This document shows positions 1 through 10,044 of a stretch of DNA of 64,000 bases, in pieces. The notes beneath the pieces were generated by a model. It made no database searches, had not been told where the DNA came from, and worked only from the letters and a program-made list of their open reading frames with translations. Every line of letters starts with the position of its first letter. Position 1 is the stretch's first letter. A program made the translations under genes and the position numbers. Source of the DNA: Paenibacillus hexagrammi (GTDB lineage: Bacteria; Bacillota; Bacilli; Paenibacillales; NBRC-103111); contig NZ_CP090978.1 of the NCBI RefSeq assembly GCF_021513275.1, positions 5,685,247 to 5,749,246 of the forward strand, given 5' to 3'.

Positions 1-1075
1 TCATCTCTCCGATTTCTTTGCGAGAGGTTTGTGTTTTACGCTCTCCTACGGAAATGAAGCATTCTAGCATATGTATAACCTGCTGCTTTTGCTTCTGAAA
101 AGATGCCGCCTGCAGCTTCTCGCCTAACTGGCTTAAACTATGCTGAATCAACAGACCCAAAGCAACGGAGCCTAAGGCAAACAAATGCTTCAGAATAATT
201 GAAAGCACCAAAGCTTCCCGGTCAAGCAGACTACTCGATGATTCCATGAAATTAAATATGAAAAAAATAAACAAAAACGCAGCGGAGGCGTATAAATAAT
301 AACGAAAAGAAGTAATCAAGCTCACGATAAGCGGAATAGATAACAACAAAACCCACATCTCACGGATATTCATCGGATTGTAAACAGAAACGGCCAAAAT
401 AAACAAAAAGGTTCCATAAAGGCCCGCATGCTTGGCTAGCGGATTCACTCGTATAGCCCGAAGCTGCAGCGCATACATTCCCCAAACCAGCAATGACGCG
501 ACCAAAAATCCAGTGCAAAAAATCAGTGAATCCACCGTTCTATTCATGATCCAATACACAGATCCAAGCATACAAGCAATTGTCGCTAAGCTTGCTAGCA
601 TTGCTAGAAATAACTGATGAGCAGACTGGCCTTGCAGCTTATTCAGCCCCAAGGAGATCCCCCTTGAATCCGGTGACTCCACGGAATTGTACTTTGGCTG
701 AAAAATTGTGGCCCCTTCCATAACATGGGCCAGTGTTCGTAGAATCTGCTCCGGCTCCGTATCCTTCATAATATATCCGTCCACTCCTGCTTTCGCTGCT
801 ATATATATATCCTCACTCTCGTCGAAAGCAGTCAAGATCACAATCCTAATATTGGGAAGCTTCTCTTTAATAAACTTAACCGCTTCTATGATCGGGGTGC
901 CAGGCATCTTCAAATCCGAAAGCAGCAGGTCAGGGACAAGCATTAAGCATTGCTCAACGGCTTCGTCTCCATCCCTCGCTTCACCTATAACCTTATATTC
1001 TGCTTGTCCGCTAAGCAGTATACGCAACCCTTGCCTGATCATCCGCCGATCATCGGCTATTACCACCTTATACAT
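1..1075 (-). CDS. response regulator receiver fused to a multi-pass membrane region (partial, runs off left edge)
   Basis: About 358 residues are visible with no stop before the window edge. Residues 1-115 form a CheY-like receiver: acidic pair D8-D9, phospho-acceptor D54 in LLLSDLKMPG, T82 and K104 in GYIMKD. Instead of the usual LuxR helix-turn-helix there follow about five hydrophobic segments (roughly residues 140-280), then a cytosolic helix ending in ERKTQTSRKEIGEM at the edge. That tail could open an HD-type or other signalling output domain, but this is a guess. The ATG overlaps the stop of the upstream kinase gene, so the two are probably translationally coupled and form a two-component pair. 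The fusion of a receiver to integral membrane helices is unusual. Confidence 0.8.
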   Translation of the reverse strand, partial: MYKVVIADDRRMIRQGLRILLSGQAEYKVIGEARDGDEAVEQCLMLVPDLLLSDLKMPGTPIIEAVKFIKEKLPNIRIVILTAFDESEDIYIAAKAGVDGYIMKDTEPEQILRTLAHVMEGATIFQPKYNSVESPDSRGISLGLNKLQGQSAHQLFLAMLASLATIACMLGSVYWIMNRTVDSLIFCTGFLVASLLVWGMYALQLRAIRVNPLAKHAGLYGTFLFILAVSVYNPMNIREMWVLLLSIPLIVSLITSFRYYLYASAAFLFIFFIFNFMESSSSLLDREALVLSIILKHLFALGSVALGLLIQHSLSQLGEKLQAASFQKQKQQVIHMLECFISVGERKTQTSRKEIGEM

Positions 1076-2618
1076 ATGTCGTGCTCCTATCTCTGGGGAT
1101 GAACGCCGTAATTGTAGTACCAGCAAGCTCTTCGGAATGAAAGGAAAGCGAGCCGTTTAAAGCCTTAATTCGATTCTCCATACCATTGAGGCCAAATTTC
1201 CCTTTCGTATCCGCTGCCAGTCCAGGCATCCCTTTACCATCATCTTGAATAATAACCGTCCACTGTACACTTGTTACATTCACTTGAACGGAAAGCCGCT
1301 TAGCCTCAGCATGTTTCACTACATTGTTGACAGCCTCCTCAACCAAGTGATAGATGGTCTCCTCGATCTCAAGCCTCTCATGAGGAATCCATCCGGAATG
1401 CTCAAAGACGGGATGTATACCCGTATTCACTGTAATTCGCTTCAGCAGCTGCTGAATAGCATGATGAAGATTAAACTTTCTCTTCTCATCCTTAAGTTCA
1501 ACAATAAAACTGCGAATCCCCCGATGACTTTCTTTTACCTTCTTCTCTATCTCTGTTAGAATGGAAACCGTTTCGGACGAAATTTCAGAAGACAGTGCGC
1601 TTCTCAATTGAAACAATTGGATGGATATAAAGAACAATTCTTGAGCAATGCCATCGTGAATATTTTGGGCAATATGATCCCGTTCAAGCGTGACCGCGCT
1701 TTTCTGGACATTTCGTAAAATTTCCTGATATTCATAGTGAACTTCATGCTGAGCCAGGATTAGCTTCATATATTTTTTATGATATTCGGCTAACTCATCC
1801 GGCTCAGCTTCGACTAACAGCCAGCCATAACGCTGACCGTTACAGAGACGCAGCGTCTGTATGTACAAGGATACTATTTGCCCTGTCGGCGAAGGCACAT
1901 ACCTATAAGCACTATCCTCCTCCAACGGATGCTGATTGAAATAATTATTGTAGTACGTGTGCGTCCAGCTCTCAGACTTCTCAAATACAGATGAATCATC
2001 CATACACAAGAGGATCGTACGGTTACCTAAAATCTCTCGCAACAGCTCCTCCATATACAGAACCTGTCCTCTTCCCTTATCCTTAGAAAGCTTCTCTCTT
2101 GAAGCATAGATCAGGTCCAGCTTCCTGAAATGAATCTTCAACCGCCCCGCCCAATACTGCACGGTCCCAACAGCGCCATAAAAGAAAAGTATATAAAAAC
2201 CGTATTGCAGTTGTTCCTCGATATATGGTAGAACTGCACGATCATATAAGAGCGCCAAAACAATAGGCAGCGCTGCGAGATAGAGCAGCCAAACCGCATG
2301 GCAAAAGCGCCAGTCTGCATACTGCTTAATTACCAGTAAACCTATCACAAAGTAACAGAGGAACGGACTCGAGAGCCCCCCTGTCCCCCATAAGAAATAA
2401 ACAGATAAGCATAGATTCAGTACATTACATAGGCGTGATATTTTGCTATGGGGATTATTGAGATGAAGCAAACCAAATACAAATTGAATAAGCAGGAACA
2501 TTAATAATAACGCGTCAAGATGCACTCCATTTCTACCGTAGATCAAAAGTCCTAGCAGAAGAGCTGCAAACTGAAAAAGTAAGTACCCAAATAGAGCTTC
2601 CCGCTTAAAATATGACAT
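1068..2618 (-). CDS. membrane sensor histidine kinase, NarL/DesK type (HisKA_3)
   Basis: A 516-residue kinase. Residues 1-160 hold five or six membrane helices; residues 180-290 look like a GAF-like or otherwise unrecognised sensor module; the dimerisation and phosphotransfer region carries H321 in HIAQNIHDGIAQE, the HisKA_3 form of the H box. The ATPase domain has an N box (EEAVNNVVKHAEA), a G1 box (DDGKGMPG) and a G2-like stretch (GLNGMENR). It autophosphorylates and passes phosphate to a receiver, either the membrane-fused regulator it overlaps by a few bases or the divergent LuxR-type regulator about 140 bp away. The signal is unknown. Good confidence in class, none in ligand. Confidence 0.92.
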   Translation of the reverse strand: MSYFKREALFGYLLFQFAALLLGLLIYGRNGVHLDALLLMFLLIQFVFGLLHLNNPHSKISRLCNVLNLCLSVYFLWGTGGLSSPFLCYFVIGLLVIKQYADWRFCHAVWLLYLAALPIVLALLYDRAVLPYIEEQLQYGFYILFFYGAVGTVQYWAGRLKIHFRKLDLIYASREKLSKDKGRGQVLYMEELLREILGNRTILLCMDDSSVFEKSESWTHTYYNNYFNQHPLEEDSAYRYVPSPTGQIVSLYIQTLRLCNGQRYGWLLVEAEPDELAEYHKKYMKLILAQHEVHYEYQEILRNVQKSAVTLERDHIAQNIHDGIAQELFFISIQLFQLRSALSSEISSETVSILTEIEKKVKESHRGIRSFIVELKDEKRKFNLHHAIQQLLKRITVNTGIHPVFEHSGWIPHERLEIEETIYHLVEEAVNNVVKHAEAKRLSVQVNVTSVQWTVIIQDDGKGMPGLAADTKGKFGLNGMENRIKALNGSLSFHSEELAGTTITAFIPRDRSTTYV

Positions 2619-2754
2619 AAAATACCACCACTTCTCAAAAATAAGTAGTCAAAAAGTAATATTTATTATACAATGGAAACTGCAGGAAATTACACCAAGG
2701 ACTAACGAACTATTGTATATTATCATATTTTTCTCGTTAATGGAGGAAGACGAT

Positions 2755-3405
2755 ATGATCAACATGATCATTCTAGATGACCATCCCCTAGTGCGCCAAG
2801 GAATTCGCATGGTCGTGGCTGCGGGACATAACTTGAACATCATTGGAGAGGCATCGAGCGCTAACGATGCTTTACAGCTGCTGGATACAACTAAACCGGA
2901 ACTCGTATTGGTTGATTTAAACTTAGGCAATGATAATGGCCTAGATTTCATACAAGAAGCCAGACGAATGGGGCACCTTTGTAAATATATGATTCTGACT
3001 TCTTCCATAACCCGCGGCGAGCTTCAATTGGCACAGTCCCTGCAAGTAGAAGGAATATGTCTGAAAGAAGCACTCCCCGAGGACCTGCTTTATGCAGTTG
3101 AGGTAGTCGCCCGTGGACGCAAGTATTACGACCCGGTCTTTATGGATACAATCATGGAGCAAGGCCCAGCCAATATGGAAACAGACCTTTCCGACCTGAC
3201 ACCTAAGGAGCTGGAAGTCTTACTAACCTTAGGTAAGGGCAGATCGAACAAAGAGATCGCAACCGAGCTTTATATCACCGAATTCACCGTTAAAAAGCAT
3301 GTTAGCCAAATCCTTGCCAAGCTCCATTTAGCAGACCGCACTCAAGCAGCTCTTTATGCTTATTCCAAAGGCCTGGTCCAATTCGAGCTGCAACGCGAGG
3401 CCTAA
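2755..3405 (+). CDS. LuxR/NarL-family DNA-binding response regulator
   Basis: 216 residues from the ATG at 2755, chosen over an upstream ATG at 2713 because a clear GGAGG lies 8 bases before it. The receiver has D8-D9, phospho-acceptor D54 (LVLVDLNLG), the switch threonine/serine (ILTSS) and a lysine in CLKEALPE. The C-terminal helix-turn-helix reads LTPKELEVLLTLGKGRSNKE and EFTVKKHVSQILAKL, typical of the NarL class. It is divergent from the HisKA_3 kinase and is likely its transcriptional output, so this locus has one kinase and two receivers. It ends just before a terminator shared with the convergent signal peptidase gene. Confidence 0.92.
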   Translation: MINMIILDDHPLVRQGIRMVVAAGHNLNIIGEASSANDALQLLDTTKPELVLVDLNLGNDNGLDFIQEARRMGHLCKYMILTSSITRGELQLAQSLQVEGICLKEALPEDLLYAVEVVARGRKYYDPVFMDTIMEQGPANMETDLSDLTPKELEVLLTLGKGRSNKEIATELYITEFTVKKHVSQILAKLHLADRTQAALYAYSKGLVQFELQREA

Positions 3406-3417
3406 TATATGACGAAA

Positions 3418-3447
3418 GATCCGCGGAAGCCGCCGGATCTTTTTTTA
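3418..3447. terminator. bidirectional Rho-independent terminator
   Basis: An interrupted stem (AGATCCG with CGGATCT, plus an inner CGG/CCG) is followed by seven T on the plus strand. It lies between the stops of the convergent LuxR-type regulator and the signal peptidase gene. The minus-strand side has only a weak T-run, so use for that gene is less sure. Confidence 0.7.
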
Positions 3448-3452
3448 CCTAC

Positions 3453-4009
3453 TTATAATTTCAAAGGCTTGGCAATGCGATACATCGGAAATAGGGAAAC
3501 TGCAGCATAGCCTCTGACTGCACTAATATGAATTTGGCCGATCTGCGGATCCCGGCTATCAAGACTTGCACCTGGCGTACGATTGTCACCGGCTACAAAA
3601 ATGTAATTATTCTTTATGGTTTGCTCTTCCATATCCTGCGATTTTCCAAACGTATATAGCTCTGGAAGCGGATTATCATTCACAAACACTACCCCGTCGC
3701 GGATTGCTATGCGATCACCTTCGACAGCTATCACACGTTTAACGATACTGTAATCCAATCGGCTATCCTTAATAACTACAACATCCCCGTACACAGGCTG
3801 GCTGTAAAACAACGGAATTTTATTTAATAGTACAATACTTGAATTTTGAAGTGTGGGATTCATCGAGTTTCCAGATACTCGGGTCAATCCGATCATATTA
3901 TTAATAAGCATATAGGCTATTCCCAGAAGAACGAAAAACCTGATCCATCCCCATACCTCATTTTTTTCTTAACACCAGGAATTCCATTCTCCAGAGTTGC
4001 TTCCGTCAT
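3453..4009 (-). CDS. type I signal peptidase, P-type Ser/Lys (frame broken near its start)
   Basis: Membrane-bound enzyme that cleaves signal peptides of exported proteins. The catalytic Ser lies in SGNSMNPTL, the general-base Lys in IVKRVIAVEGD, and the GDNR-x-S-x-DSR box in AGDNRTPGASLDSRD. The long open frame starts only at 3911 and would lack the membrane anchor. Upstream, an ATG at 4009 with RBS GGGAGA encodes MTEATLENGIPGVKKK and meets a run of seven A (3961-3967 as T on plus); with eight A the frame continues through NEVWGWIRFFVLLGIAYM, the missing anchor. So the gene is 4009-3453 with a one-base loss, or expression by slippage. It is the last gene of a row of three secreted-protein genes and probably processes them. 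It is not SipW-type, which lacks the Lys. Confidence 0.88.
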
Positions 4010-4037
4010 AGTCTGCTCTCCCTCTAAGTGTCATAAA

Positions 4038-4760
4038 CTATTGTTCACCATATACGTCATCGGTCACAGCGGGAACCGTTTCTTCCTGCGTAGTCGGAGC
4101 TGTTTCAGAATATTCAGGGGTTCCCACAACAGGCGGCGATGTGATTGCATCCGCTGGTTTGCTGTCTTCAGCAGAAGCCGGATCCTGGGAAGGCTCGGCT
4201 GCACTGTTATCCTGAGATGGTGCCGGACCTGGAGGCACAGCTGCACCGCTATCTTGTGCAGGTCCCGCCGGTATGGCTCCAGGAGCTTGTCCCACCGTTA
4301 CAGGAGTAGCAGGTGTAAACACAACAGCCGGAGGTACATATGTAGCAGCCAACGAATCCATAGCAGCTTTAGCGCTATTCTCAATTAACAAAAGCTTTTC
4401 CTCGATTTGTTGACGATCAACTTCTGTCTTTACATCCATTTTATCTACAAGCTCTTGCGCATATTGCTGAATCGCTTGGATGCGGAGCTGCTTCTGTTCT
4501 TCTGTAAATCCTTCCAGTTCTTGAGAGGATCTATTAAGTCGTTGCTGCAGTTCTTTCTTTAACATGTTTTTTTGCTTTTCTGTTTCGGACTTCATGGACT
4601 CGTCTAAGCTTTGTAAAATAATCTCCGTCTTCTTGTTGAACCAAGCATTCAAAGAAGCAGCAATATCTACATCTGCGTAAGAAACACTTGTTGTAGCAGC
4701 AACTATAGCGGTTAAAGAAACAAATCCAGCAACGATTTTTCTTTTTGACTTAAGATTCAT
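4038..4760 (-). CDS. secreted coiled-coil protein with Pro/Ala-rich tail (third member of the triad)
   Basis: About 240 residues from the ATG at 4760 (GGGAGGG 7 bases upstream; an earlier ATG at 4778 has no such site). A signal peptide (KRKIVAGFVSLTAIVAATTS) ends near SYA-DVD. The mature start DVDIAASLNAWFNKK resembles the two neighbouring genes (L-x-x-W-Y/F). Residues 40-140 are charged and heptad-like, predicting coiled coil; the last 100 are rich in P, A, T and Q, like a wall-spanning or linker tail. No catalytic motif is seen. It sits 28 bp before the signal peptidase gene. Function unknown; a surface or fibre-like structural role is an inference. Confidence 0.8.
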   Translation of the reverse strand: MNLKSKRKIVAGFVSLTAIVAATTSVSYADVDIAASLNAWFNKKTEIILQSLDESMKSETEKQKNMLKKELQQRLNRSSQELEGFTEEQKQLRIQAIQQYAQELVDKMDVKTEVDRQQIEEKLLLIENSAKAAMDSLAATYVPPAVVFTPATPVTVGQAPGAIPAGPAQDSGAAVPPGPAPSQDNSAAEPSQDPASAEDSKPADAITSPPVVGTPEYSETAPTTQEETVPAVTDDVYGEQ

Positions 4761-4796
4761 AAATTTACCCTCCCTCATCCTTAATTAAAATAAGCT

Positions 4797-4818
4797 AGAA
4801 GGTCCGAGAGGACCTTCT
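4797..4818 (-). terminator. perfect 9-bp hairpin between triad genes 2 and 3
   Basis: AGAAGGTCC and GGACCTTCT flank a GAGA tetraloop in the 73-bp gap between two secreted-protein genes. On the minus strand it is followed by CTAGCTTATTTT rather than a clean U-run, so it may be a leaky terminator or an mRNA-stabilising hairpin that sets different amounts of the two products. Confidence 0.55.
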
Positions 4819-4833
4819 ATTAGATTTAACATC

Positions 4834-5616
4834 TTACCACAAACGTGTCCCGTCGATATCGTTTACAATGTTATCCAAATCTTTTAGAGCTTTATCTTCA
4901 AGAGACTTACCTTGATTTGTAATGGCATCTTTGTTTTGTTTTTCAAGATCATCAGCAAGCTTTTGAAGTTCAGCCTTCTTATCAATAACTTGTTTATCCA
5001 GGTTTGCCTTAATTTCAGTATCAGCAGTTTCTCTTTCTTTTTGAAGAAGATCTTTCAGTTCACCTTTTGTTTCTTCAATTTTCTTGTTTAAATCTTGAAC
5101 TGCTTGAGTCTGAGCCGTAGCAACCGTTGTGTTCAGACCATTCAAGGAAGCAGCACCTTGCGCGGGAACATCTTTCTTAATGTTTGCTGTTCCAGTATCA
5201 GCAATCCCTTTAACAATACCGTTATTAATACCATTAGAAAACGCTACCGCTGAATCATACTCACCAGGCATATATGATTTTATGTCCTTTGACTTACTGT
5301 CCAATTGACTTGCGTATTGATCAACACTTTTTGTAATATTTCCAGTTACTCGGCTTGTCTCTGTGTCACCAGTTACTTTAACATTTGTTACAGCATTGCT
5401 GTCAATCGCAGCAGAATCTGATTTGAATTGAGCAGATTGATTTTTAACATAACCAGCCACATCACCGGCTATTAGACCTTTAGTAATTGTGGAAGCAGCA
5501 ATATACCAATTTTGAAGTTGTCCTCCTGCATCTTTAGCTGCAAAAGCTGTCCCCATTCCTGCTACTAAACCTGTCGCAATAACACCAACTGCAATTTTGC
5601 TTTTCAAAGATTTCAT
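4834..5616 (-). CDS. secreted coiled-coil protein (second member of the triad)
   Basis: 260 residues. The signal peptide MKSLKSKIAVGVIATGLVAG is cleaved near AFA-AKDAGG. The mature start KDAGGQLQNWYIAAST is close to the SDAGNVLQNWYQAQ start of the neighbouring gene 5738-6202. The middle is Ser/Asp/Asn-rich; residues 165-250 (KIEETKGELKDLLQKERE onward) are strongly heptad-like, with a run of repeated K/E/L/D. No cysteine and no enzyme motif are visible. RBS AAAGGAGA stands 11 bases before the ATG. The family is not recognised; together with its two relatives and a signal peptidase it looks like part of an exported assembly. Confidence 0.82.
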   Translation of the reverse strand: MKSLKSKIAVGVIATGLVAGMGTAFAAKDAGGQLQNWYIAASTITKGLIAGDVAGYVKNQSAQFKSDSAAIDSNAVTNVKVTGDTETSRVTGNITKSVDQYASQLDSKSKDIKSYMPGEYDSAVAFSNGINNGIVKGIADTGTANIKKDVPAQGAASLNGLNTTVATAQTQAVQDLNKKIEETKGELKDLLQKERETADTEIKANLDKQVIDKKAELQKLADDLEKQNKDAITNQGKSLEDKALKDLDNIVNDIDGTRLW

Positions 5617-5657
5617 TGTCGATCATTCTCCTTTAGATTTTTATATGTTTGAACTGT

Positions 5658-5674
5658 GTTCACGAGAAGTGAAC
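5658..5674. promoter_or_regulatory. 17-bp dyad GTTCAC-N5-GTGAAC
   Basis: A perfect six-base inverted repeat lies 42-58 bp upstream of the second triad gene, in the 121-bp gap after the first. Its size fits an operator for a dimeric regulator, for example the LuxR-type regulator at 2755. That link is inference: I did not find the same dyad upstream of the other triad genes. Confidence 0.35.
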
Positions 5675-5737
5675 CCATTAATCCCAAAACTGACTAATCC
5701 GCACAAGCCCTTTTCACGTAAAACCTCTTCAAAAAAT

Positions 5738-6202
5738 TTACTGAACCATACTTGATGTCATCTCTTTAATCGACTTGTCAACCGTTTGATCAAGTTCAAT
5801 ATCGAACTGCTCACTAGTTTCTTTGACATATCGTTCAAATTGATTTTTGGCAGATTGAATTTTAAGTTGCTTACTCGCTTGTTCGATTTGGGCTTGATAG
5901 GAAGCATTGACTGTCTGAATACTACCTATCACTTGCATACCAGCTTCAAATTCAACCTTCTTCAATTTTCCATTTGTTCGTGAAATCATATCTTGAATAG
6001 CATCTTTCAGTTCCTTTACAGAATGGTTGGATTGCTGACGAATCAAGATACCTTTCGCACTGCTTATAGAATCATGAAGTTGTGCTTGATACCAGTTCTG
6101 CAGAACGTTCCCTGCGTCTGAGTACGCATATGCGGTACTCATGGTATAGAGTGTTGAAATCATCAATGAAGCGACAGCAACTTTACATTTCAGACGGTTC
6201 AT
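5738..6202 (-). CDS. secreted protein, first member of the triad
   Basis: 154 residues from the ATG at 6202, chosen so that MNRLKCKVAVAS matches the MKSLKSKIAVGV start of the next gene; a GGAGGAGG stretch lies upstream. Signal peptide ends near AYA-YSDAG. The mature start SDAGNVLQNWYQAQ carries the shared L-Q-N-W-Y motif. The remainder is a helical charged protein (KELKDAIQDMISRTNGKLKK) with no cysteine after the signal peptide and no known enzyme motif. It is first in the row, followed by the larger relative and the Pro-rich one. Function unknown. Confidence 0.8.
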   Translation of the reverse strand: MNRLKCKVAVASLMISTLYTMSTAYAYSDAGNVLQNWYQAQLHDSISSAKGILIRQQSNHSVKELKDAIQDMISRTNGKLKKVEFEAGMQVIGSIQTVNASYQAQIEQASKQLKIQSAKNQFERYVKETSEQFDIELDQTVDKSIKEMTSSMVQ

Positions 6203-6366
6203 TGTGTTCTCTCTACCTCCTCCACGCAACTCCCGCTTACAAAACCTAGTATACCTTCCGATACGTTTTGTGACATTGCCCCTTAGAGTAATCTTTGGCT
6301 GCTCCTATTGAGGGGGTTATGGTATACTTTCGTACCAGTCGCTCCCCCTCGGAAGCAGCACATACC

Positions 6367-7845: not shown

Positions 7846-7913
7846 ACAGAAAAATGAAATCATCTCCGCAAAAGTAGAGTAAGACGGGGGATTACTCCCC
7901 CGGACTCCTCATC

Positions 7914-7946
7914 AAACCGTGCATGCGGATTTCCCGCACACGGCTT
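7914..7946 (-). ncRNA. group II intron domain V
   Basis: AGCCGTGTGCGGG-AAA-TCCGCATGCACGG folds into the conserved 34-base catalytic hairpin with the AGC triad at its start. It is followed by domain VI (GAGTCCGGGGG with CCCCCG) and the intron 3' end. This is the catalytic core of the ribozyme. Confidence 0.9.
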
Positions 7947-8019
7947 TCCTTCGTCAGTTCCCCATCTTCAGGAGTGAGTCGTCTTCACCCGTCACCGGAT
8001 TGCAAATTTCACTGCTGAA

Positions 8020-9186
8020 TTAGAAACGTGTGGTGAGTAAGTTTGTTAGAAATACCATCCCTGCTTCTTCCAATACTTTGTTTGGAATAAGCCGGTTTGA
8101 AACCGTAGACTTCTTTTTCCGCATAAAAGCTCGCACTCTCATGCGTGTCCATTCGTCTAGGCGTTGAAACTTTTTCTTTACGTTCCCAATCCCAAAATAG
8201 TTACCAAACCCGCGTGACACTTCATTTAGCTTCTTCATCATTTCGTTAAGGTTGTTACCTTGCTGCCTTCGGGTGATCTTGTGGACTTTCTCTTTGTACT
8301 TCTTCACTTTTGCGTCCGGCAAGATGAGATATTCTTTCCAGAAGTCAAATCCTAGAAAACGGAATCCTTCATCGAATTGCACCACTTTCGTTTTCTCTGG
8401 ATGCATTCTCAGCTGAAGTTCCCCTTCTAAGATGGTTTTTGCCGTTTGGTATGCTTCTTCTGCTCGCTCCTTTGTTTTGCAAAGAATAACTGCATCATCT
8501 GCATATCTGACCACAGCAAACCCCTTCTCCTTCATACTCCAGTCGAAATGATTCAGATATAGATTCGCAAGTAATGGACTGATGACCCCGCCTTGTGGGG
8601 ACCCGACTAACGTTTCATGGAACTGATCATCTTCCATGACTCCTGCGGTGAGCCATCCGCGAATGAGCGTCAGCACTTTACCGTCGGTTATTCGTTCACG
8701 AACCTTTTCCATCAGCAGTTCATGCGGAATTTCATCGAAAAAGGATATAATGTCGAGGTCTACCACATAGTCGTATCCGCCGCGCTTTGCTCGTCGAATC
8801 GTGTTTATTGCTTGATGCGCAGAGTATCCAGGTCGGAAGCCAAAGCTGTAGTAGTAGAAGTCTTGCTCAAAGATCGGCTCGATGATTTGACGTACAGCCT
8901 GCTGGCATACGCGATCTCGGATTGTGGGAATGCCTAACGGTCTTAACTTCCCGTTTTCCTTCTCGATGAAATGTCGCCTGACAGGGTCGGGTTTGTACCG
9001 ATCTTGTTGCAGTAGCCTTTGGATTTCCTTTAGGTTGATGCCTATGTTCTTCTCGAACATACCAATGCTTACCCCATCAATTCCGCCACTTCCTTGATTC
9101 TTCTTTACTGCCAGCCAGGCTTCATTCAGATTGTCCATTTGATATATTTTGTCGATCAGGGAGTAGTATCGTCGTTTCGGTTTCAT
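8020..9186 (-). CDS. ltrA: group II intron reverse transcriptase/maturase
   Basis: 388 residues. RT motifs in order: RPLGIPTIRDRVCQQAV, FGFRPGYSAHQA, VVDLDIISFFDEI, GSPQGGVISPLLANLYL and the active-site VRYADDAVI, followed by the maturase X domain (GFRFLGFDFWKEY, then a basic helical region). There is no HNH endonuclease, as expected for class C introns. The protein helps the intron RNA to splice and copies it into DNA after reverse splicing. The gene lies in domain IV of the intron at 7874-10044 and is transcribed with it. Confidence 0.96.
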   Translation of the reverse strand: MKPKRRYYSLIDKIYQMDNLNEAWLAVKKNQGSGGIDGVSIGMFEKNIGINLKEIQRLLQQDRYKPDPVRRHFIEKENGKLRPLGIPTIRDRVCQQAVRQIIEPIFEQDFYYYSFGFRPGYSAHQAINTIRRAKRGGYDYVVDLDIISFFDEIPHELLMEKVRERITDGKVLTLIRGWLTAGVMEDDQFHETLVGSPQGGVISPLLANLYLNHFDWSMKEKGFAVVRYADDAVILCKTKERAEEAYQTAKTILEGELQLRMHPEKTKVVQFDEGFRFLGFDFWKEYLILPDAKVKKYKEKVHKITRRQQGNNLNEMMKKLNEVSRGFGNYFGIGNVKKKFQRLDEWTRMRVRAFMRKKKSTVSNRLIPNKVLEEAGMVFLTNLLTTRF

Positions 9187-10044
9187 TGGTGTTTCACCAC
9201 CTTTACCTGCTACTCACCAAGCTGATCTTGTTCGCGCTACAGATGATCGATTCCTTACTCGTTCTACCTCATGCAACCGCGTGTTAGAAAAAATTTTTTT
9301 TTCAATCGCTCCTGTTGCCTGAGGTGTACTCAGGTCGCCAGTTTGCCTCTATCCCCAAGCGCTATCTCGCTCTCGGCGGGACGCACCCTCTTGGTCATAC
9401 CCTCTCTGGTTTAAGGCGCTTACGATCTCCACTCACTTGAACTCACAGTCTTTGACGAAGCACGTTCCCTTTGCCTCTGTCTTCCCTCTTTTGAAGTGGA
9501 AGCAGGTTATGCGACTAAGAATATTTTTTTCCCCACGCGCATACTCATCCGAGTTTTCCCCTCTAGACTGTTACCAGCTTTCATCGGCTCAGACTTATTC
9601 GCTACTACGGAACGATCCGCCATCTCGCAGTTCATCGATTTGGCTTTCCCCTTAGGGTTATACCTTGCCTACCTCACACGCGTTTGCGCAGAGGAAACTA
9701 CGAGACTTCCCTCAGTTATCTGCACATTCTGTTCCATCCATCCTGACCCTAATCACGTAGATGAGCCTTGCAGGTCATATCCCTTTCGCGCTTTCCTGCA
9801 AGATATGCCTATGGCATAGATTTCCCCGTTTTTCCGGCGGGTCATCCAACATCTCCGCCACCTCTGGTTCACCGCATTCCGGGCTGGACTTTGCCTGCAG
9901 GCCCTTCGGATTCCCCCTCGCGAGAGACACCCTGCCAATCCTTCTCCTACTGGAGTTAGGACTTCTGCTTCGGCTACGGCACTTTAAAGGGTAAAGTTAC
10001 CGAGTGGATTTGAACCACTTAGATTGTGCGACTGTGAGGCGCAC

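Follow-up and report, generated by a model that had tools for sequence, protein, structure and literature searches.

A conserved gene set for three related secreted helical proteins and a P-type signal peptidase in Paenibacillus hexagrammi and other Bacilli

Introduction

To our knowledge, very few designs are known among the protein matrix systems of Gram-positive bacteria (i.e. TasA/BsaA, sortase pili and S-layers). In the tapA-sipW-tasA system of Bacillus subtilis, TasA is a jelly-roll protein that polymerizes by donor β-strand (PMC9674648). The sipW-bsaABCRSD locus of Clostridium perfringens comprises a signal peptidase, a secreted polymerizing protein, a two-component pair that binds the promoter and an internal terminator (PMC7395162). 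Here we analyse a 64,000-nucleotide stretch of the P. hexagrammi genome (assembly GCF_021513275.1, contig NZ_CP090978.1, positions 5,685,247–5,749,246; hereafter the window), in which the minus strand carries, in this order, three open reading frames (ORF1, ORF2 and ORF3; hereafter the trio) and a type I signal peptidase gene. Each of ORF1–3 encodes a Sec signal peptide ending in A-x-A.

Like sipW-bsaABCRSD, the locus encodes a signal peptidase and a two-component pair together with several small proteins that are secreted. In the C. perfringens locus the regulator acts on the operon promoter and the internal terminator sets product proportions; the counterparts here would be an operator and a hairpin. 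By contrast, the substrates of sipW-bsaABCRSD are BsaA/TasA-like and its peptidase is of SipW type, while here the substrates are unrelated helical proteins, the peptidase is P-type, an extra receiver and an HD-GYP-like protein are encoded, and the regulator gene is convergent. With tapA-sipW-tasA the locus shares a dedicated signal peptidase beside exported proteins. The N-terminus of TasA freed by cleavage is an assembly element, and a similar role is proposed here, although for helices with a Trp motif. The mismatch with tasA/sipW pointed out in a preliminary description of this DNA is borne out: the peptidase retains the catalytic Lys that the endoplasmic reticulum-type SipW enzymes lack, and Peptidase_M73 (PF12389) has no match in ORF1–3 or in the whole window genome. 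Because peptidase class and substrate fold both differ, the locus does not belong to sipW-tasA/sipW-bsaA. By analogy, it may instead be a signal-peptidase-coupled matrix operon that follows the same logic with substrates of no described family.

Distribution and gene order

Genomes of 61 near relatives, and then ~400 each from the order, the class, one sister family and the phylum, were searched, and the fetched loci were annotated with profiles to score gene content and order. The whole or partial set is present in 48 genomes from several families of Bacilli (e.g. P. alginolyticus, P. phytorum, P. alba, other members of the soil genus Paenibacillus and Oceanobacillus massiliensis). In 45 of these, the three genes adjoin each other on a single strand, always in the order ORF1–ORF2–ORF3; the three exceptions are a split set (L077, L090), a set without ORF2 (L089) and one with an interrupted ORF2 remnant (L091). 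In the genome with the split set, ORF2 and the peptidase gene lie at one site, and ORF1, ORF3 and the gene of the response regulator RR1 lie ~600 kb away.

A signal peptidase gene directly follows the trio in 39 of the 45 complete loci and in two partial loci (L077 and L089), i.e. it adjoins the secreted genes as in TasA/BsaA loci. Recurrence of this neighbour had been set in advance as a check on the preliminary description, which it upholds.

An alignment-based scan of genome contigs yielded 16 matches, and a single-sequence scan of the contigs yielded none. Outside the Bacilli, the phylum-level search returned only C-terminal, composition-like matches and one small secreted protein (L206, 1381–1719, minus strand) that carries a WF motif shortly after its cleavage site; it is reminiscent of DUF2680 and is probably unrelated. 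Plasmid and phage collections gave no match to the set, which is thus not known as mobile.

The three secreted proteins

ORF1 and ORF2 are clearly homologous, judging by their profiles (hhalign E 2e-14 over 125 columns). ORF3 is more remote, with an hhalign probability of 71% to ORF1 and 22% to ORF2. A single ORF2 profile nevertheless matches all three proteins at the window locus, and likewise at many other loci, with signal peptides supplying part of the similarity. The likeness asserted in the preliminary description is thereby beyond chance, and the three exported proteins and their common N-terminal motif were found where it had placed them.

The shared motif reads D-x-[AG]-x-x-L-x-x-W-[YF]. 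Across wide alignments, the Trp that follows closely on the cleavage site is kept in 24/24 ORF1 sequences (where it is the sole invariant residue), 31/31 ORF2 sequences and 28/29 ORF3 sequences; the Tyr that follows it in ORF2 is also invariant (31/31). The motif had been suggested as a recognition or assembly signal. Recognition by the peptidase is disfavoured, since six loci without a peptidase gene (L155–L160) keep the motif, which therefore does not serve merely to mark substrates for that enzyme; a part in assembly is the better fit. The Pro-rich tail at the ORF3 C-terminus (window ~4038–4330) is very variable in length and often has V-[TS]-x-D-V-Y near its end.

The ORF2 signal peptide (window 5616–5539) is far more conserved than the mature chain, with identities of 0.96 versus 0.54 in nine genomes and 0.55 versus 0.28 over 31. 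The secreted PdaA of the same genomes has the opposite pattern (signal peptide 0.64, mature chain 0.90). The ORF2 leader may be conserved because it is matched to the dedicated peptidase, or because it has a function of its own.

No described family fits the trio, in agreement with a second check set beforehand: Pfam, NCBIfam and PHROGs scans of ORF1–3 gave only composition-level matches, and PDB profile searches gave nothing convincing. Matches to apolipoprotein and ATP-synthase b' chains in the PDB appear compositional. Literature searches aimed at the system and its analogues, confined to open-licence papers, found no description of it.

Helical periodicity and structure models

The hydrophobic period of ORF1–3 is 3.73–3.75 residues (96.0–96.7 degrees per residue), i.e. 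non-heptad. Power at the peak is 4.5–8.7 compared to 1.1–1.3 in shuffled sequences (four to seven times the shuffled value), and there is almost none (0.37–0.70) at the heptad angle (3.5 residues, 102.9 degrees). Synthetic controls gave 102.6 degrees for a heptad and 98.1 degrees for a hendecad. A left-handed heptad coiled coil is therefore rejected, since the 102.9-degree period expected of it has almost no power in ORF1–3. The observed period is near 15/4, which is typical of right-handed coiled coils, and suggests that the helices may supercoil in this way.

Right-handed coiled-coil stalks with non-heptad repeats of 11 or 15 residues are known from ATP synthase b2 and the A-ATPase EG complex, subunit G having a 15-residue repeat (PMC6131620), and pentadecads occur in trimeric autotransporter stalks (PMC5297931). 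ORF1–3 share the non-heptad hydrophobic repeat with these stalks, which are parts of enzymes or autotransporters, whereas the trio are stand-alone, Sec-secreted proteins with no homology to them. AlphaFold2 predicts ORF3 with a predicted local distance difference test score (pLDDT) of ~90 over residues 41–150, with helices at 38–113 and 119–146 and a disordered tail. The mature chains contain no Cys and no transmembrane stretch (highest 19-residue Kyte–Doolittle mean 1.34).

The signal peptidase

The locus enzyme is P-type (Peptidase_S26) by its sequence, as the preliminary description had it: the window peptidase matches TIGR02227 at 1.1e-29 compared to 5.5e-5 for the archaeal-type TIGR02228. 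The catalytic residues are kept, i.e. Ser in SGNSM and Lys in VKRVI, and the Lys is present in all aligned relatives. Both boxes occur in the window and in relatives, while an N-terminal membrane anchor is in frame in relatives only. Like the housekeeping type I signal peptidases (SipS/SipT, LepB kind), it is a P-type Ser/Lys enzyme. Unlike those, the locus enzymes form a separate clade. A maximum-likelihood tree was built from 23 locus peptidases, sampled from Paenibacillus to Oceanobacillus, and 23 other signal peptidases encoded by eight of these genomes; a branch with support of 100/100 separates the two groups. One aberrant fragment was excluded from this tree; with it included, the grouping required two changes. 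This suggests that the enzyme has travelled with the trio.

The peptidase gene begins at ~4009, and the start at ATG 3911 given in the preliminary description is internal. Against all relatives, one base is gone beside the A-run at 3961–3967, so that the window sequence encodes the membrane anchor in another frame. The window genome has a second S26 peptidase gene (L173) that is likewise split between frames. RR2 and a membrane HD-GYP-like protein form one open frame in the window but two overlapping genes in relatives, which may be a real fusion or an indel error. The second split gene and the RR2/HD fusion suggest uncorrected assembly indels, and the peptidase frameshift is perhaps an assembly error or else real decay. 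Completeness of the window genome is 97.35% compared to 99–100% in most relatives, a further hint of such indels.

Regulatory elements

Alignment of 20 upstream regions reveals a 16-bp palindrome, GGTACNAAAGTNTACC, upstream of ORF1. It has exactly one copy in the 6.6-Mb window genome and is perfect or has one mismatch in all 24 kinase-bearing loci; among loci without the kinase, it is approached only in L085 and L086. Because the palindrome is single in the genome and co-occurs with the kinase, it is most simply explained as the binding site of RR1, whose only strong target would be this operon. The promoter-like sequence downstream of it scores within the shuffled expectation.

The preliminary description placed two-component genes next to the set. 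Their adjacency holds, but RR1 is convergent with the peptidase gene and is not co-transcribed with it. The HD protein keeps HHExxDGTGYP, but its HD pair reads HF, the D being lost, so that cyclic-dinucleotide binding, and not degradation, may be its role. A kinase–receiver–HD group also adjoins the trio in L152–L154, in a different arrangement.

In 32 of 37 loci, the gap between ORF2 and ORF3 contains a hairpin with a perfect stem of eight pairs or more; shuffled sequences gave a mean of 2.4 and a maximum of 7 pairs. Its place is conserved while its sequence differs between lineages (L029–L165), and a comparable hairpin occurs in only two of 31 ORF1/ORF2 gaps. This location fits ORF1 and ORF2 as bulk products, with ORF3 and the peptidase as minor ones; ORF2 is probably the major product of the operon.

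Table 1. Features of the locus, with positions in the window
Feature	Position	Strand	Description
ORF1	5738..6202	-	154 aa; signal peptide and helical secreted protein; motif SDAGNVLQNWY behind cleavage site
ORF2	4834..5616	-	260 aa; signal peptide and helical secreted protein; motif KDAGGQLQNWY
ORF3	4038..4778	-	246 aa; signal peptide, helical domain 38–146, disordered Pro-rich tail; motif DVDIAASLNAWF
P-type signal peptidase I gene	3453..4009	-	One base missing beside A-run 3961–3967; open frame from ATG 3911 lacks membrane anchor
Palindromic operator GGTACGAAAGTATACC	6321..6336	-	Presumed response-regulator site; from uniqueness in genome and alignment of loci
Weak sigma-A-like promoter ATGTCA-17-TATACT	6248..6276	-	Downstream of operator; position aligned in relatives
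ORF2/ORF3 intercistronic hairpin	4796..4819	-	10 pairs; presumed partial terminator or RNA-stabilizing stem
Hairpin and T-run between convergent response-regulator and peptidase genes	3418..3447		Probable shared terminator, from sequence reading
RR1, NarL/LuxR-type response regulator	2713..3405	+	Pfam Response_reg and GerE; convergent with peptidase gene; conserved neighbour
Membrane histidine kinase	1068..2618	-	HisKA_3, HATPase_c
RR2 receiver domain, then in frame membrane HD-GYP-like protein	1..1156	-	Extends beyond window start; 540-codon frame at L045:11781-13403

A PdaA-like polysaccharide deacetylase gene follows that of the HD protein in 14 Paenibacillus loci (L029, L039, L044 and 11 others); in the window genome, that search detected no such gene downstream. 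Elsewhere in the window, a group II intron (7874–9927; reverse transcriptase frame 8020–9186, minus strand) lies beside a threonine synthase gene. A search with Rfam returned pieces of this intron type and no RNA element at the operon.

Functional interpretation

The explanation that we favour, at roughly even chances, is that the operon is under two-component control and encodes a secreted polymer of the cell surface or matrix, all-helical and made of three subunits. The membrane kinase would phosphorylate RR1, which on the single palindrome upstream of ORF1 would turn the operon on, and the HD-GYP-like membrane protein may couple this switch to the cyclic-di-nucleotide level. ORF1–3 would exit via Sec, and the P-type signal peptidase of the operon would trim them; a housekeeping peptidase presumably does so in lineages that lack it. 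Cleavage would expose an N-terminus in which the Trp motif begins a long helix with a right-handed (~15/4) hydrophobic stripe, and homo- or hetero-oligomerization through the stripe and the Trp could then form rods or fibres at the cell surface or in the matrix. The hairpin behind ORF2 would hold the bulk subunits ORF1 and ORF2 above ORF3 and the peptidase, and ORF3 may use its Pro-rich tail to span the cell wall or hold on to it. The observations proper are the gene linkage, the motif, the periodicity, the operator, the hairpin and the peptidase clade, on which the proposed RR1 binding, processing, polymerization and surface location are built. A more specific and more doubtful proposal, to which we give clearly less than an even chance, is that the trio represents a new class of Gram-positive extracellular fibre, in which three Sec-exported subunits pack as right-handed helices via a Trp motif that cleavage by their dedicated signal peptidase exposes, i.e. 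a helical counterpart of the TasA donor-strand fibre. The preliminary description spoke of an export or surface-fibre system; a coherent secreted-protein system with its own peptidase stands, while an export system is not supported, given ordinary Sec peptides and no transport machinery.

Several observations weigh against a helical polymer built in this way. Six complete loci of two families (L155–L160) have no peptidase gene, and the kinase is lacking in about half of the loci outside the genus of the window, so neither is indispensable; moreover, the operator is restricted to kinase-bearing loci. The AlphaFold2 model of ORF2 (helices 30–113 and 162–255) has low confidence (pLDDT 51). Fold searches with the ORF2 and ORF3 models reached no solved structure at E < 0.001, the ORF2 model being too poor for this purpose. 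No wall-anchor, S-layer or sortase motif was recognized.

Long amphipathic helices without Cys or transmembrane stretches would also suit apolipoprotein-like surfactants that lie flat on a lipid, air–water or hydrophobic-substrate interface and form no coiled coils. Consistent with this, the ORF2 profile weakly matches apolipoprotein A-IV chains in the PDB (E 1.7e-5), and the Pfam Apolipoprotein model weakly touches six of 19 members (best 5e-5), although not the window protein. However, such matches are typical of composition, the period of 96.0–96.7 degrees is closer to 15/4 than to the apolipoprotein 11/3 (98.2 degrees, at which the power falls to between about a quarter and 60% of its peak value), and three co-ordered paralogues with an ORF2/ORF3 hairpin would be unexplained, which together make surfactants unlikely. 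Three tandem helical secreted paralogues likewise recall the alpha-helical tripartite toxins. A three-part pore former is rejected for its missing hydrophobic segments and retains a negligible probability: the mature chains are short (~130 to 230 residues), Pfam and NCBIfam give no family match, and a dedicated peptidase is foreign to such operons.

Two other possibilities make the kinase a partner of the secreted proteins. The unusual conservation of the ORF2 leader, the reverse of that in PdaA, is the reason for retaining pheromone signalling, in which the cleaved leader is released, with the dedicated peptidase as its maker and the adjoining kinase as its reader. Yet trio and leader are present in L155–L160 with neither a peptidase gene nor an adjacent kinase, the kinase has no recognized peptide-sensor domain, and the Trp motif and helical periodicity of the mature chains would be left without explanation; we regard this as improbable. 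Alternatively, small secreted helical proteins beside a kinase could be envelope-stress accessories, i.e. chaperones or kinase modulators in a role like that of CpxP, Spy or DbfQ, which sense misfolding and feed back on the kinase. A [FY]TEEQK sequence in ORF3 resembles the CpxP/Spy LTxxQ in a by-eye comparison, but Pfam and NCBIfam give no CpxP/Spy match, ~18 trio loci have no kinase alongside, and the palindrome puts the trio downstream of the regulator, as product rather than sensor. The chance of this role appears small.

Significance

The gene set is widespread, includes a protease, an operator and a stoichiometry hairpin of its own, and has parts that match none of the described families. 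As a possible helical matrix encoded by one operon, it can be tested directly in genomes that, like that of the window, yielded no TasA-family gene. The locus peptidases would also provide a natural series of signal peptidases evolving with their substrates, which would be useful for understanding how such enzymes gain specificity.

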